From: a virus
Virus record (IMG/VR): IMGVR_UViG_3300042691_047966
Span: 1 to 23,609 of that record
Length of the DNA: 23,609 nt
Reading direction: 5' to 3' (one strand)
Shown here in pieces: positions 3 through 9,179 of the stretch (position 1 is its first letter; every line of letters starts with the position of its first letter). The notes under the pieces are model-generated. The model made no database searches, had not been told where the DNA came from, and saw nothing but the letters and a program-made list of their open reading frames with translations. A program made the translations under genes and the position numbers.

Positions 3-1382
3 GGAACTATAGCGTCTGGATCATACTCAACAGTAGTAGGTCAATATAATATAGCTTTACCATCACAAAGCGCATTCATAATTGGTGATGGAACAGAAAC
101 TTTAACTGCTGTTGGATCAGGAGAATTAACTAATTCCCCTAAAATAGGTGATACAGTTTTTACCCTTAAACAAATATCCGGTACTGGTCCTTCTGTTGGA
201 AGTATAATAACAGTAGTTGGAGGTTCAGGTAGTGAAACTTTTACTATTACTAGTGTTAAAAATACTGGTGGAGGTGGTTATGATATTACTGTAACCCCAG
301 GGGCTGGGCAAAATTTTTCTAGTGGAAATTCATATACTATATATAGTTTAGTAGCTAATAGGCATAATCTTTTATTTGCTTCAAGATCATGGTTTGATGT
401 TAGTGCTTCAAATGTATTTTTAAGAGGAATACCTACATCTCCTGAAACTCAAGTATTAGTCTATAACACATCTTCAGGCCAAGTTTATTACACAGCTTCA
501 AGTGCTATTGGTGGAGGAGGATCTACATCAACTGGAACATTTTCTTTACCTGTACCTAAAGTAATTTTATATAACTCGTCAAGTGTGCCATTTCAACTTT
601 ATGTTGAAATTCAATCATATAACTCAGCTAGTGGGGGTGCTGGGGCTACTAATGCTAAGTTATATAATAGTCCTAGAGTAGTGACTATGGATATAACAGA
701 TGAAATGTTAGCTAATCATCGTATTTTTGTAGAGTTAGTTCATTTTAAAAGAGGCAGGCGAAAAGGAGGACAATCATATTTTATACCACCTTCTCATATT
801 AATAGTGGAGGTGGAGTTTATATAAACAAGTTAGCGGCTGATTTAGGTGTTCCCTTATCATCTAGAGGAGGTAAACAAAAATGGAGAACCAATCCAAATG
901 TTGTCCCCGCTGTTTTTGCAGATATACAAGTTAATAGACCAAATCATTATGAAGTAACAGCCCGCAATCAAACAATCCCAGTATATGAATATTTAAATGG
1001 TTGGTTTATAAAAGGACCTATATATTACGCTAATACTTCTGGAGGGGTATCAACTTTTGACTCATGGTATCCTTCATATAGAAGCACAGTAGGAAATAGC
1101 CCTACAGGTAGATTTGCTTATGGAGCTACATTTTCTCCAATGTATGTTGCTTTTAGATACATAGCTTGGAATAGTAGTGCTAATGGAGGTAGTGGAGCAT
1201 TTATATCTGGTCCTTTAAGTCCTATTGTAGCTATAGGTCCTCAAATCTTTCCATTTGTTCAAGATCCTATCTCTACAGCTAATTTAGGTGCCCCAACAGC
1301 ATATTTATCTCAAGCATATATTGATGATCCAGGACTTTACAATAATAATTTAAAATGTTGGTTTATGAATAGATTACCATAA
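3..1382 (+). CDS. Phage fibre/appendage-type structural protein, 5' end beyond the window
   Basis: The frame is open from base 3, so the visible 459 residues are the C-terminal part of a longer protein; the GTG at 585 is internal and not a credible start. The first visible residues, GTIASGSYSTVVGQYN, resemble the head repeats of trimeric fibres and YadA-like adhesins. At residues about 147-174 there is a cassette (TSSGQVYYTASS followed by a GGGGS linker) that also occurs twice in the next gene. The last 270 residues form an aromatic- and glycine-rich domain that I do not recognise, with no obvious transmembrane segment. The likely role is a virion appendage, perhaps a side fibre whose unrecognised C-terminal domain is the tip. 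Function is inferred from the head-like repeat, the shared cassette and the neighbouring fibre genes. It could also be a baseplate-attached decoration protein. The reading frame is secure; the exact role is not. Confidence 0.7.
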   Translation, partial: GTIASGSYSTVVGQYNIALPSQSAFIIGDGTETLTAVGSGELTNSPKIGDTVFTLKQISGTGPSVGSIITVVGGSGSETFTITSVKNTGGGGYDITVTPGAGQNFSSGNSYTIYSLVANRHNLLFASRSWFDVSASNVFLRGIPTSPETQVLVYNTSSGQVYYTASSAIGGGGSTSTGTFSLPVPKVILYNSSSVPFQLYVEIQSYNSASGGAGATNAKLYNSPRVVTMDITDEMLANHRIFVELVHFKRGRRKGGQSYFIPPSHINSGGGVYINKLAADLGVPLSSRGGKQKWRTNPNVVPAVFADIQVNRPNHYEVTARNQTIPVYEYLNGWFIKGPIYYANTSGGVSTFDSWYPSYRSTVGNSPTGRFAYGATFSPMYVAFRYIAWNSSANGGSGAFISGPLSPIVAIGPQIFPFVQDPISTANLGAPTAYLSQAYIDDPGLYNNNLKCWFMNRLP

Positions 1383-1387
1383 TATGA

Positions 1388-1398
1388 TAAAAAACTAA
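1388..1398 (+). repeat. 11-bp direct repeat, left copy
   Basis: TAAAAAACTAA occurs here and again at 1501-1511, exactly flanking the stem-and-repeat element. This could be a target-site-duplication-like footprint of an inserted element. It could also be a coincidence of A-rich leader sequence. Confidence 0.5.
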
Positions 1399-1502
1399 CA
1401 CACAAATGGGGCATCAGAGTTCTTGGTTCGTCTTTGGACGCATTAAGGTTCTTGGTTCGTTTTCGAACGCATTAGGGTTCTCGGTTCCCCATTTGTTTGT
1501 TA
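1396..1502 (+). ncRNA. Candidate structured RNA element between fibre genes
   Basis: ACAAATGGGG at 1402-1411 pairs perfectly with CCCCATTTGT at 1487-1496. After one C/T mismatch the stem continues with TAACA (1396-1400) and TGTTA (1498-1502). The enclosed 75 nt hold two full copies and one partial copy of a 29-nt repeat, each full copy able to form a small hairpin. In copy 1 the hairpin is CGTC-TTTG-GACG; in copy 2 it is CGTT-TTCG-AACG, so a C-G pair is replaced by T-A, a compensatory change. The following bases are A-rich rather than T-rich on this strand, so it does not look like an intrinsic terminator for the + strand. It matches no RNA family I can name. Possible roles are a regulatory leader of the 820-residue fibre gene, an RNA-processing site, or a DNA-level protein-binding or recombination site. 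Confidence 0.5.
1419..1487 (+). repeat. Tandem 29-nt repeat, 2.4 copies
   Basis: Copies start at 1419, 1448 and 1477, with exact 29-nt spacing. The two full copies agree at 25 of 29 positions; the third is cut after 11 nt and runs into the closing arm of the outer stem. The core is GTTCTTGGTTCG followed by a short hairpin and GCATTA. There are no unique spacers between copies, so this is not a CRISPR array. Confidence 0.85.
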
Positions 1503-1511
1503 AAAAACTAA
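1501..1511 (+). repeat. 11-bp direct repeat, right copy
   Basis: TAAAAAACTAA matches 1388-1398 exactly. It lies 7 nt before the ATG at 1519, so it also forms the A-rich leader of the downstream fibre gene, as expected for translation initiation without a Shine-Dalgarno sequence. Confidence 0.5.
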
Positions 1512-1518
1512 AAAAAGA

Positions 1519-3981
1519 ATGGGTAGTTATCCCTTATTAAAAGACACTACAGGCTCAGCAGGAGGTGGAGGTAATTTTGTACCAAGTAGTTGGACAGGAT
1601 CATCCACTTCTCAATTTGCTGGCACAGCTTCATATGTAAGTGGTTCTGTATTTACAAGTACAAACCTAGCATTAAGTGCTTCATACGCATTAAGTGCTTC
1701 ATTTGCAACAAGAGCTATATCAAGTTCTTATCCAATATCAGTAATTGGAAGTTCTTTATATTCTATTGCTCTTAATGCTGGAGTACCGAGCCCTTCTACT
1801 GCTAATTACAGTACATTCTTTGGTGAAGACGCAGGTTTATCAGCTACAAATGCTGGTAGCTCAAACTTTTTAGGTTATAGAGCTGGTTATAATGCTACAA
1901 ATGCTTATGGCTCAAACTTTTTAGGATTTTATGCTGGCGCTGGAGCAACAAATGCTAATAGTTCAAACTTTTTAGGGCAAAGTGCTGGTGGTAATGCTAC
2001 AAATACTAATCGTTCAAACTTTTTAGGAAGTAGTGCTGGTGATAGTGCTGTAGATGCTGACCAATCAAACTTTTTAGGATTTTATGCTGGTCGAGATGCT
2101 ACAAAAGCTGAAAATTCAAACTTTTTAGGTTTTCAAGTAGGTTTTCGAGCTATAAGTGCTTCATATTCAACATTACTTGGTTATCAAGTAGGATACACTC
2201 CTACAGCAAGTCTTAGTATAGGCACTAATAATATTATCATTGGTACAAATATAACCCTAAGTGGAAGCAGAAAAGATTCTATTAATATTGGAGGAATAAT
2301 ATTCGGAACAGGATCACACAGCGATATTAATGCAACCTACCCATTCTCAGGCTCAGTGAACGGAAGAATAGGAATAAATATTGTAGACCCAACTTACAGC
2401 TTACATGTATCAGGAACAGTAGCATTTCCTAATTTAACTAATACTGCTCAAACAAATATAGTTACTATTGATACAAGCACTGGTCAACTATTTTATACAG
2501 CTTCAAGTAATATTGGTGGAGGTGGTGGAAGTGGAGTTACTATAAATAATAACACTAATAATAATCTTGTAACAGCTACAGGAACATCTAACACATTAGA
2601 TGGAGAAGCTAATTTAACATTTGATGGATCAGCTTTAAAAGTTGTAGGTAATGTAACAGCTTCATCTTTCACTGGGTCATTCACTGGATCATTATTAGGA
2701 ACAGCTTCATATGCTGATACAGCTTCAGCTGTGAATGTCACTGTAAGTTCAAATACAGATGAATTTTTACCTGTAATTGTAGCTTATACTGGTTCTTCTG
2801 ATGGAGCTAAATTAGCTTATATAGATAGTGGTTTTCAATATAATCCATCTACAAACGCTCTTTATTTACCAAGTAATGGAGCTCTTGTAGCTGGTAATGT
2901 CACAGTATCAAGCAATACTTCTACATTCGGATCAGCTACAGCTCAAAACCATACTTTAAACTTAACTGGTTCTCTTAATGTAACTAAGAGTTTAAATGTA
3001 ATTGGTAGTATGAGTTTAAATGCAATTCCAACAGCATCATTTCATATTAGTGGCACCACAATATTAAATGGTGGTAATTTAGTTGGTTTACCTTTTTCTT
3101 CTTTTACAACTGTCCCAACTCAAATAACTGGTAATGCAGGTATTAGAGGAATTTTATATGTTTACCCTAGATCAGGTGACACTTCTAGTGTAATTTTTGG
3201 AGGTGGAGGTTATCAATCTTGGACTTTACGATCATTAGGTTTTAATGATTTTCAAATACGCTCTACATCAAATGAAAATGCAACACCTGGTCCACAAGTC
3301 ACATTAATGCATTTTTCATCAGGAAGTAATGGTGAATTTAGAATTGGTGTTTTAAATGAAACTCCAGAATATACATTTGATATTAGTGGTAGTGCTCGAG
3401 TAACTAGTTCTTTTTATTTACCAGGCTTAACTACAATTCCTCAATCAAATGTTTTAACTATTGACACTACAACAGGCCAAGTTTATTATACAGCTTCATC
3501 TGCTTTTGCTTCTACAGACTCAAATATATTTAAAGGAACTCAAACTTTTTCTGGTAGTTTAATACCAGCAGGTCCATATATTGATAATACATCATCTTAT
3601 AATTTAGGTTCACCAACAGCAGCTTGGGATAAAATATATGTTTCAAATAATTCATTACATTTTGTAAGTGGATCTACTTCTTCTAGTATAGGGTTTAACA
3701 ATGGTATTATTAGTTTTAATAATGCTACAGTTACTATACCTACAGGGTCAACTATCCCATATACTTCAACTTCTTCTATTATAGGAGATGGCATAAATGC
3801 AAGCTATGATATAAATCACGGATTTAATACTAGAAATTTGCATATAACTGTTTATGAAAACTTTGACAATTATGAAACAGTATATCCTGATATAAGAAGA
3901 ATCAATGATAACACAGCAAGCATTGTGTTTGCTAATCCAGTATCAGCGATAAACCAATATGTAGTTTATATATCACAATAA
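1519..3981 (+). CDS. Long tail fibre protein with head-type repeats (820 aa)
   Basis: A Ser/Thr/Asn/Gly-rich fibrous protein. Residues 50-75 carry SASYAL/SASFA repeats. Residues 98-233 are eight tandem 17-residue repeats of the type SNFLGxxAGxxATxAxx, resembling stacked turns of trimeric-adhesin head domains. The cassette TGQLFYTASS plus glycine linker lies at about 309-338 and recurs as TGQVYYTASS near 641-664. A segment at 381-405 (FTGSFTGSLLGTASYADTAS) is of a kind common in environmental phage fibres. The last 75 residues (GDGINASYDINHGFNTRNLH and following) look like a compact C-terminal tip domain seen at fibre ends. The likely role is a trimeric fibre contacting the host or linking adhesins to the baseplate. 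The ATG at 1519 follows an A-rich leader without a Shine-Dalgarno. The stop overlaps the next start as TAATG, implying translational coupling. Confidence 0.8.
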   Translation: MGSYPLLKDTTGSAGGGGNFVPSSWTGSSTSQFAGTASYVSGSVFTSTNLALSASYALSASFATRAISSSYPISVIGSSLYSIALNAGVPSPSTANYSTFFGEDAGLSATNAGSSNFLGYRAGYNATNAYGSNFLGFYAGAGATNANSSNFLGQSAGGNATNTNRSNFLGSSAGDSAVDADQSNFLGFYAGRDATKAENSNFLGFQVGFRAISASYSTLLGYQVGYTPTASLSIGTNNIIIGTNITLSGSRKDSINIGGIIFGTGSHSDINATYPFSGSVNGRIGINIVDPTYSLHVSGTVAFPNLTNTAQTNIVTIDTSTGQLFYTASSNIGGGGGSGVTINNNTNNNLVTATGTSNTLDGEANLTFDGSALKVVGNVTASSFTGSFTGSLLGTASYADTASAVNVTVSSNTDEFLPVIVAYTGSSDGAKLAYIDSGFQYNPSTNALYLPSNGALVAGNVTVSSNTSTFGSATAQNHTLNLTGSLNVTKSLNVIGSMSLNAIPTASFHISGTTILNGGNLVGLPFSSFTTVPTQITGNAGIRGILYVYPRSGDTSSVIFGGGGYQSWTLRSLGFNDFQIRSTSNENATPGPQVTLMHFSSGSNGEFRIGVLNETPEYTFDISGSARVTSSFYLPGLTTIPQSNVLTIDTTTGQVYYTASSAFASTDSNIFKGTQTFSGSLIPAGPYIDNTSSYNLGSPTAAWDKIYVSNNSLHFVSGSTSSSIGFNNGIISFNNATVTIPTGSTIPYTSTSSIIGDGINASYDINHGFNTRNLHITVYENFDNYETVYPDIRRINDNTASIVFANPVSAINQYVVYISQ
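1810..2217 (+). repeat. Eight tandem 51-nt coding repeats
   Basis: Eight in-frame 51-nt units, from STFFGEDAGLSATNAGS to STLLGYQVGYTPTASLS. The SNFLG core is identical in units 2-7, and its nucleotide form (tcaaactttttagg) is almost invariant, so the copies can recombine and change number. The end units are more diverged. Confidence 0.9.
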
Positions 3982-4133
3982 TGAAATTTTTATCTGAAAT
4001 ACAATTTGCTACTACAAGCTCAATGGAATCCCCTCCTAGCGGCTTTATCACTATATATGCTAACATAGATGGCAATCTATATGCTGAAACTCCAAATGGA
4101 AATCAGATAAAACTAAGCAATACAGCTGGATGA
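3981..4133 (+). CDS. Stand-alone 50-residue fibre module
   Basis: A 50-residue frame begins in the TAATG overlap with the upstream fibre gene and ends in an ATGA overlap with the downstream gene, so it is tightly coupled on both sides. The sequence runs from MKFLSEIQFATTS through PPSGFITIYANIDGNLYAE to a terminal LSNTAG. It aligns with residues 1-48 of both following glycine-rich proteins: an FVTQS-like strand, then P-x-x-G-x-x-x-x-Y-A, then LY and a final L followed by G. This P-SG-YA-LY pattern is familiar as a short module in phage appendage proteins. The likely role is an attachment or capping piece that assembles with the fibre or the adhesins. It could instead be the remnant of a third adhesin that lost its glycine-rich domain. 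The two overlaps and the homology make it a credible gene; the role is inferred. Confidence 0.72.
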   Translation: MKFLSEIQFATTSSMESPPSGFITIYANIDGNLYAETPNGNQIKLSNTAG

Positions 4134-5216: not shown

Positions 5217-6305
5217 ATGGCTAAATTACTAACAACAGCTTCATTTGTAACACAGTCTGCCCCCGCTACTCCAAGTTCAGGGTACGGAACCTTGTATGCT
5301 AGCGGTAGCAATCTTTTCTATAAAAATAGCCTAGGTGTCAATTACGACTTATCAATAGCGGGTTCTAGTAGCTTTGCTTTTTTTACTAGCTCAGGAACAT
5401 GGACATATAACACCGGTTCTAACATACAGTATATAAAAGTGGTGTGTGCAGGAGCGGGTGGTGGTGGAGGTAGTGGTCGTACTATTTCACCAAATGCTGG
5501 AAACCGTAACGGAGGAGCAGGAGGTGCAGGTGGTAACATAAACATAGCATACTTCTCATCCCAATCCCTAACAACTGGCAGCTACACAGTGACAGTAGGA
5601 GGAGGAGGTTCTGGTGGTGCTAGGCAAACAGGTATAAATAACAACGGAAGTGCAGGACAGACAGGTGCCAATAGTTCATTTGCTTCAGGCTCAACCATTC
5701 TTGTAATAGGAGTAGGTGGACCTGGTGGATCAGCAGGATCAGCTACCAACGTTGGTAACGCTCTTGCAGGAGGTACCAACACCGCCCCAACAACTGCCAC
5801 AGTCCCAAATCCATACCCCCCATTTTATTTCTCAGGTGTAAATGGTGGTGACACAGGAGGAGGATTGGTGCAACCAGCTGAGTCTAATGCTTTAGGAACT
5901 AGATGGCTAGCAGGTGGAGGTGGAGGAGGAGCCATAAACTCATCCAACGCCCTTATCCCAGGAGGCTCGGGTTCTAGTGTATGGAATGGTGCAGTTCTGA
6001 TATCATCAGGATCTCCAGGAGTTTCAGGTAGCAATGGTAGTGATGGAGCTCCAGTAGTAGATGTACTAAGTTTATTTTACTACAGTGGTAGTAATCTAAC
6101 ATCAAATGTAAGGATTGGAACAGGAGGACATGGAGGAGGAGGTGGAGTACATGCTCCTGTCTCTTCATCTGGAGGTAATGGTGGATCAGGGAGTAGAGCA
6201 GCGGGTGGAGGTGGTGGTGGTGGATGTAACGGAGCTACTGGATTATCTAGTGGTGCAGGTGGACCTGGTGGAGATGGTTTTGTAATAATTTTTGAATACT
6301 TTTAA
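5217..6305 (+). CDS. Glycine-rich tail adhesin-like protein, copy 2 (362 aa)
   Basis: A paralogue of the preceding gene with the same plan and almost the same length. Residues 1-48 are the short module (TLYASGSNLFYKN). Residues 55-75 are FFTSSGTWTYNTGSNIQYIK, which fits the lead strand of phage glycine-rich domains. Polyglycine runs follow (AGGGGGSG, GGAGGAGGN, VGGGGSGG, AGGGGGGA, GTGGHGGGGG, AAGGGGGGG), and the protein ends in GFVIIFEYF. The two copies agree at the module, lead strand and glycine runs but differ in the intervening loops, as expected for receptor-binding loops under diversifying selection. The gap to the upstream gene is 4 nt. There is no signal peptide or membrane segment, fitting a virion protein. 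The role is inferred from the family type and position. Confidence 0.75.
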   Translation: MAKLLTTASFVTQSAPATPSSGYGTLYASGSNLFYKNSLGVNYDLSIAGSSSFAFFTSSGTWTYNTGSNIQYIKVVCAGAGGGGGSGRTISPNAGNRNGGAGGAGGNINIAYFSSQSLTTGSYTVTVGGGGSGGARQTGINNNGSAGQTGANSSFASGSTILVIGVGGPGGSAGSATNVGNALAGGTNTAPTTATVPNPYPPFYFSGVNGGDTGGGLVQPAESNALGTRWLAGGGGGGAINSSNALIPGGSGSSVWNGAVLISSGSPGVSGSNGSDGAPVVDVLSLFYYSGSNLTSNVRIGTGGHGGGGGVHAPVSSSGGNGGSGSRAAGGGGGGGCNGATGLSSGAGGPGGDGFVIIFEYF

Positions 6306-6522: not shown

Positions 6523-6523
6523 A

Positions 6524-6543: not shown

Positions 6544-6792
6544 ATGAAAATAAAAGTTTTAACTCAAGAAGAAATCAATCAGTTAGGATCTATCCAACAA
6601 GAAAGATATTCTATAATTGATAAATTTGGCACTATTGAAATTCAATTTCAAGAATTAGAATCTACTAAACAAAAACTAAAACTTGAATATGAAAAACTAA
6701 AACAAAAAGAAGAAATTTTAGGAAAACAGTTACAAGAAAAATACGGTGATGGTACTATTAATCTAGAAAAAGGAGAATTTATAAGCAATTAA
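6544..6792 (+). CDS. Small coiled-coil protein (82 aa)
   Basis: The middle of the protein (residues 18-68) is rich in Gln, Glu, Lys and Leu with heptad-like spacing (FQELESTKQKLKLEYEKLKQ) and should form one long helix or coiled coil. The end is KYGDGTINLEKGEF, a conserved-looking tail of a kind I associate with small proteins in T4-like marine phages. It sits alone between two TATTTAT-type sites, just upstream of the tail sheath. Possible roles are a virion-associated scaffold or a tail assembly factor. I do not recognise a characterised family. The start is supported by the A/T-rich leader and by the lack of any upstream in-frame start after the preceding gene. Confidence 0.6.
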   Translation: MKIKVLTQEEINQLGSIQQERYSIIDKFGTIEIQFQELESTKQKLKLEYEKLKQKEEILGKQLQEKYGDGTINLEKGEFISN

Positions 6793-6812
6793 TTTTTTGA
6801 ATTTTTTTAGGA

Positions 6813-6820
6813 TATTTATC
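6813..6820 (+). promoter_or_regulatory. TATTTATC motif upstream of tail sheath
   Basis: The motif (GATATTTATCAATAAA context) is 43 nt before the sheath ATG. The 71-nt gap holds no hairpin or Shine-Dalgarno, only A/T-rich sequence. A promoter here would suit the high copy number needed for sheath. It differs from the other sites at the last base. Confidence 0.35.
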
Positions 6821-6863
6821 AATAAACCCCAATTAAAAAACAACTTAATTAATTTAAAATAAC

Positions 6864-9119: not shown

Positions 9120-9146
9120 AAGCTAAATTTAATATTTTATAAAAAG

Positions 9147-9179
9147 AGCTCGCAAAAAATGCGAGCTTCTTTTTTTTTT
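9147..9179 (+). terminator. Rho-independent terminator after tail tube
   Basis: AGCTCGCA (9147-9154), a 5-nt A loop and TGCGAGCT (9160-9167) make a perfect 8-bp stem, followed by TTCT and an unbroken T run to 9179. This is the clearest terminator in the window, 28 nt after the tube stop. Confidence 0.93.

Follow-up and report, generated by a model that had tools for sequence, protein, structure and literature searches.

Phage operons are known to carry intercistronic hairpins that are cut by RNase III or stabilize the mRNA, such as the R sites of T7, and the exchange of tail-fibre tips between mosaic genomes is a known kind of fibre variation. Among palindromic elements, REPINs are extragenic, about 100 bp long and built of two inverted arms around a hairpin-forming spacer (PMC3116915). 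Virulent phages, one of them a Polaribacter phage, can carry functional attC sites (PMC9892861).

We compared these systems with a fold-back element in IMG/VR record IMGVR_UViG_3300042691_047966, an incomplete metagenome contig that was analysed over its whole length of 23,609 nt (the window; Table 1). Like a T7 R-type hairpin, the element is a strong hairpin that lies between co-directional structural genes and has no terminator tail, but it differs in its internal three-unit repeat and in that the genes on its two sides were one gene before an insertion. As in a mosaic tip exchange, a glycine-rich linker joins a new tip domain to a conserved shaft, but here the old distal half survives as a restarted, separate ORF, with the structured element between the two.

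Table 1. Features of the split fibre locus and of its counterpart on contig L117 (window coordinates unless stated)
Feature	Position	Strand	Description
orfA, upstream fibre ORF	3..1382	+	459 codons, open at window start
Insert absent from L189, L193 and L203	521..1560 (approximate)	+	~1.04 kb
Tip (knob) domain	543..1382	+	starts (S)LPVPK, ends at stop 1380-1382
Left copy of exact 11-bp direct repeat	1388..1398	+	TAAAAAACTAA; possible target-site duplication or leader copy
Fold-back element	1396..1502	+	107 nt; 16-nt inverted repeat (15/16) around 75-nt repetitive core
Outer stem, 5' arm	1396..1411	+	TAACACACAAATGGGG
44-codon ORF spanning element	1406..1540	+	probably not a gene
Three head-to-tail 29-nt units	1411-1439, 1440-1468, 1469-1497	+	
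Outer stem, 3' arm	1487..1502	+	CCCCATTTGTTTGTTA
Right copy of 11-bp direct repeat	1501..1511	+	TAAAAAACTAA; also within leader of 820-codon ORF
fibB, downstream fibre ORF	1519..3981	+	820 codons; shaft and original C-terminal domain
L117 palindromic element	6751-6861 (of L117)		after fibre-tip domain; stem AATTTGGGGAC / GTCCCCAAATT

A stable fold between two fibre ORFs

The first-pass annotation had described a stem enclosing 29-nt tandem repeats at this site, and inverted-repeat and direct-repeat analyses agreed with its coordinates, sequence, stem and repeats. The arms of the outer stem are 94% complementary, with a single C–T mismatch in 16 pairs, and units 2 and 3 are 79% and 69% identical to unit 1. 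None of 1,000 dinucleotide shuffles reached the level of the 29-nt direct repeat; the 10 bp of the stem that pair perfectly, taken alone, were equalled in 15 of 1,000. RNA folding, a check that the annotation had named, returned stable structures on both strands. The plus-strand fold of 1396–1502 had an energy of −39.0 kcal/mol, whereas shuffled sequences averaged −21.1 (z = −5.87; 0 of 200 shuffles as stable), and the minus-strand fold one of −30.1 kcal/mol (z = −5.66). Of the 87 intergenic gaps in related phage loci that were 80 nt or longer, the one between the orfA stop and fibB held the most stable fold, and the outer stem had pairing probabilities of 0.84–1.0 when folded in a context of 300–500 nt. 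The fold potential of this segment is real. Modelling favours an RNA form on the plus strand, because the fold is more stable there and the three-way form described below holds six G–U pairs, a bias that may partly reflect the choice of the plus-strand minimum-energy fold and the shared ancestry of the arms.

An intrinsic terminator was rejected: no T-run follows the stem and no terminator-like site was found at the element, whereas a textbook terminator (9146–9168; nine-pair stem, T10) follows the tail-tube gene. At the position equivalent to 9146–9168, four related loci (L012, L013, L015 and L035) have gaps similar in length and folding energy. A tRNA search found none at the element.

The element lies in an insert that splits a fibre gene

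The new result is the context of the element, an insert-split fibre gene. The annotation had placed it between two fibre genes; there are indeed fibre ORFs on both sides, but three relatives (L189, L193 and L203) have a single gene in their place, with the orfA and fibB shafts contiguous within one ORF. The N-terminal shaft of fibB (NFVPSSWTGSSTSQFAGTASY) aligned to the middle, not the start, of the long fibre ORFs in relatives. In L189, the orfA shaft runs straight into the fibB shaft (SSGQVYYTASSAIGGGSVGGNFVPSSWTGS) within one ORF of 598 amino acids, which is followed by a small gene resembling in translation the one after fibB; L193 and L203 have the same order. In DNA alignments, positions 356–517 and 1566–1701 of the window matched positions 2832–2993 and 3000–3135 of L189, and positions 355–520 and 1557–1711 matched L193. 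These paired alignments lie within 6 nt of each other in L189, overlap by 9 nt in L193 and are ~1.04 kb apart in the window. Judged from these alignments, a segment of ~1.04 kb has been inserted at a glycine linker and has split one fibre gene in two. Both ends of the insert fall in glycine codons, which limits their placement to within about 10 nt and suggests a short-homology event. In order, the insert contains the tip domain, the stop codon, the element, a new leader, the ATG at 1519 and a new N-terminus (MGSYPLLKDTTGSA); the element is compact, relatively GC-rich and close to the 3' end. The tip domain was modelled with AlphaFold at a mean pLDDT of 44, and the model was set aside.

A small ORF of about 50 codons (3981–4133) follows fibB and overlaps both the fibB stop and the next start. 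Its conservation in L002, L015 and L035 (50–69% identity) and its native codon use mark it as a real small tail gene.

We found the tip domain on one other IMG/VR contig, L117, and a profile scan for further relatives of the domain returned L117 again and no others. Homology between orfA and L117 is confined to the tip domain (27% over 296 columns), with LPVPK as its exact start and the stop as its end. As in the window, the order in L117 is tip domain, stop, palindromic element, ATG and shaft-like repeats, an association of element and tip domain that was noticed after the fact. The L117 element folds with z = −3.6 on the plus strand and −4.1 on the minus strand, and no sequence similarity between it and the window element was detected. 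Because no empty-site relative of the L117 fibre was found, the split of that gene is proposed by analogy. The window contig may be misassembled across orfA and fibB, but the parallel architecture in L117 argues against such a chimera.

Inner structure and covariation

The small hairpins that the annotation described did not give the lowest-energy fold, which was a rod formed by pairing between units: the three-way form with two hairpins reached −37.7 kcal/mol and the rod −39.0. In context, the probabilities were ~0.59 for hairpin 1, ~0.18 for hairpin 2 and ~0.34 for the rod. The two positions reported to covary (14 and 19 of the unit) do show a compensatory change between two units, but they are the two sides of a single pair, C–G to T–A, and simple arithmetic (four transitions over 29 positions, eight Watson–Crick pairs) gives ~0.12 compensatory pairs by chance. 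As a sign of selection for an RNA structure, this pairwise covariation amounts to one base pair and is statistically weak, and relatives lack the stem.

A comparison of three arms, with the outer stem as the third arm (picked because it pairs) and a bulged A left out, gave four double changes in ten pairs with full pairing, a result reached by 8 of 500 shuffles; no slid control matched both the double changes and the full pairing. This hints at maintained pairing, as read from paralogous repeats inside a single molecule.

A conserved leader RNA was rejected. Relatives retain the flanking shaft sequence and the stem is absent from them, an outcome that the annotation had listed as counting against conservation; the absence arises because the element sits in the insert that these relatives do not carry.

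Searches for relatives of the element

The element matched no Rfam family at the gathering score, which bears out the annotation's remark that no described family fits, and nothing convincing appeared at E values up to 10. BLASTN with the element against 50,697 phage records and against plasmids found no relative, and a covariance model of the three-way form, run on ~1 Mb of related phage loci, matched the window alone. Degenerate patterns of the 29-nt unit gave no matches, or chance matches, in IMG/VR and GTDB, and the inner unit had 0 exact matches in GTDB; the scans of these two collections used exact patterns, which diverged copies would escape, and sensitivity was unequal between searches. 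The outer-stem pattern matched 19 IMG/VR contigs, every one with a different inner sequence, and several of these belong to one separate repeat family. Also set aside were an inverted repeat at 5505–5637 of L054, which spans coding sequence and was attributed to chance, and a 14-mer shared with the L117 phage (at 16074), which has no inverted or tandem-repeat context and was likewise taken as chance. By itself, without homologues, the element is of modest interest.

A separate conserved repeat element with ACAAATGGG words and long hairpins occurs on L092, L093, L095–L099, L101, L102, L106, L108 and L109, and is common to many viral contigs.

An 11-bp repeat flanks the element

The annotation's description did not include the exact 11-bp direct repeat, TAAAAAACTAA, at the flanks of the element (shuffle p ~0.0002). 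With the element and one copy removed, ~24 nt remain between stop and ATG, an ordinary short leader as in other genes. The repeat suggests that the element was inserted into the leader. A duplicated leader is also possible because other leaders of the phage contain these words, with up to 10 nt shared (tube-gene leader). ATGGG words at 1519–1523 and 1406–1410 each stand 7 nt after the TAAAAAACTAA word, and a leader-plus-start segment of 26 nt occurs twice, 113 nt apart and 81% identical. On the best reading, the element was probably acquired with or after the cassette.

Transcription and the preferred reading

orfA and fibB lie in the same-strand gene block. A motif, ATATTTAT (often ATATTTATAA), occurs at positions 6523, 6812, 8601, 9182, 10234 and 17269 of the window, 20–51 nt upstream of the ATG with which a gene block begins, and precedes many genes in related loci as well; in this phage group it probably serves as a late promoter or leader motif. 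It is absent from the 100 nt upstream of the fibB start, so orfA and fibB are probably read from one message, and gene order likewise makes their co-transcription probable. The 3' end of the stem is 17 nt before the ATG of fibB. The annotation was right that the element lies in the leader of this 820-residue gene and had suggested regulation of fibre expression, RNA processing or a protein-binding site, but direct control of initiation finds no support in the predicted accessibility of the fibB start, which was about equal whether the element was present (mean unpaired 0.74) or removed (0.72).

The reading that we prefer begins with the ~1.04-kb segment entering the fibre gene at the glycine linker, by which the upstream half would gain a tip domain and a stop, and the downstream half a leader and an ATG. 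The element itself was probably inserted into the leader between that stop and the ATG. We infer that it is transcribed in the fibre mRNA and folds out as one stable stem, which would leave 13 + 16 = 29 unpaired nt from stop to start. It could then act as an intercistronic hairpin that stabilizes the message, is processed or insulates the two halves, which would be expressed separately. As in a processing or stabilizing hairpin, the stable fold stands between genes that are probably co-transcribed. We favour this view tentatively, as the leading one but short of probable; against it we counted that no homologue of the element itself was found and that the L117 element shares no sequence similarity with it.

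Alternative readings

An intercistronic hairpin is only slightly favoured over a neutral palindromic insertion, which would look nearly identical. The element would then be REPIN- or MITE-like, a miniature piece of palindromic DNA that duplicated an 11-bp target when it inserted into the leader and that does nothing for the phage, its presence being tolerated because it is folded out of the mRNA; we regard this as possible, although we lean against it. Its size of ~107 bp, extragenic site, inverted arms and hairpin-forming spacer are those described for REPINs (PMC3116915). Each arm of a REPIN contains an imperfect palindromic core, however, and the element arms ACAAATGGGGCATC and GGTTCCCCATTTGT have no self-palindrome, whereas the L117 arm GGGACAGTCCC does. 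REP sequences also come in many copies with a REP-associated transposase; this element is present once in the 23.6-kb record, its inner unit lacks an exact GTDB match and we know of no such transposase for it. The exact 11-bp flanking repeat favours a target duplication while setting the element apart from REPINs, but it resembles ordinary leaders of the phage and has 10 nt in common with that of the tube gene. To our knowledge, IS200/IS605-type transposition makes no target duplication, which also counts against a mobile element, as do the G–U pairs that favour an RNA form. The L117 counterpart adds weight on the other side: its stem AATTTGGGGAC / GTCCCCAAATT is dispersed in GTDB bacteria, sometimes many times per genome, and recurs at similar spacing at 60 GTDB loci with different inner sequences, including several copies in some Clostridia. 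From this distribution, the L117 stem is a dispersed REP-like palindrome of bacteria.

Palindromes of the form AATTTGGGGAC(N60-90)GTCCCCAAATT (L129–L188) are scattered through MAGs of Clostridia, Acidobacteria and Gammaproteobacteria, with several per genome in some.

Much less credible is a recombination site that moves fibre-tip cassettes, as in an integron cassette consisting of a gene and a folding attC. Two unrelated fibre genes do show the cassette order of ORF, stop and imperfect palindrome, the palindrome is of attC-like size and directly 3' of the stop of the inserted ORF, and functional attC sites exist in virulent phages (PMC9892861). The details are discordant: the GTTRRRY and RYYYAAC core boxes are each off by one position (GTTAAAA and AACTAAC), there is neither a several-base unpaired spacer nor an extrahelical base, and the right end of the cassette lies 55–65 nt past the element, which is thus away from the cassette boundary. 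The L117 element lacks GTT/AAC ends, and no integrase was seen within the window.

It is similarly improbable that the 44-codon ORF across the element, which overlaps the fibB start by 22 nt, is translated and that its translation opens the hairpin and tunes fibB. Its ATG is spaced from TAAAAAACTAA exactly as the fibB ATG is, L117 likewise has a 45-codon ORF across its element that ends in an ATGA overlap, and whole-region shuffles gave p < 0.01 for both ORFs. When only the interiors were shuffled, however, p was 0.56 for the window ORF and 0.18 for that of L117; codon use of the window ORF fell below that of every in-frame window of the phage's genes, and no homologue was found. We rejected this ORF as a gene for its non-native codon use and because composition-matched shuffles showed it to be expected from composition.

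Ligand sensing by the RNA, for instance as a degenerate preQ1-I riboswitch (RF00522), has next to no plausibility, as the weak cmscan match at 1471–1517 (15.5 bits, E = 0.53) rests on the tail UAAAAAACUAA, which is like ordinary leaders of the phage, falls far under the gathering score of 39, breaks three stem pairs and has a stem that competes with the outer stem.

A possible route for tip switching

Phage host range turns on fibre tips. In a broader and unlikely reading, stop, structured element and restart would together form a portable module: a mobile tip cassette would insert in frame into shaft linkers, the new tip would end the protein, and the structured 3' end would let the displaced distal half with its old tip be made separately. 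The window and L117 would then have received their insertions independently, and the structured ends would be convergent. If true, tip switching would have a concrete route in such a cassette, which brings in a tip, cuts the old fibre short and leaves the distal half as a second gene, and the structured element between the halves would offer an obvious handle on their expression or exchange.

Elsewhere among the related phage contigs, L079 carries a very long AT-rich inverted repeat at 2785–2873, with arms of ~30 nt.
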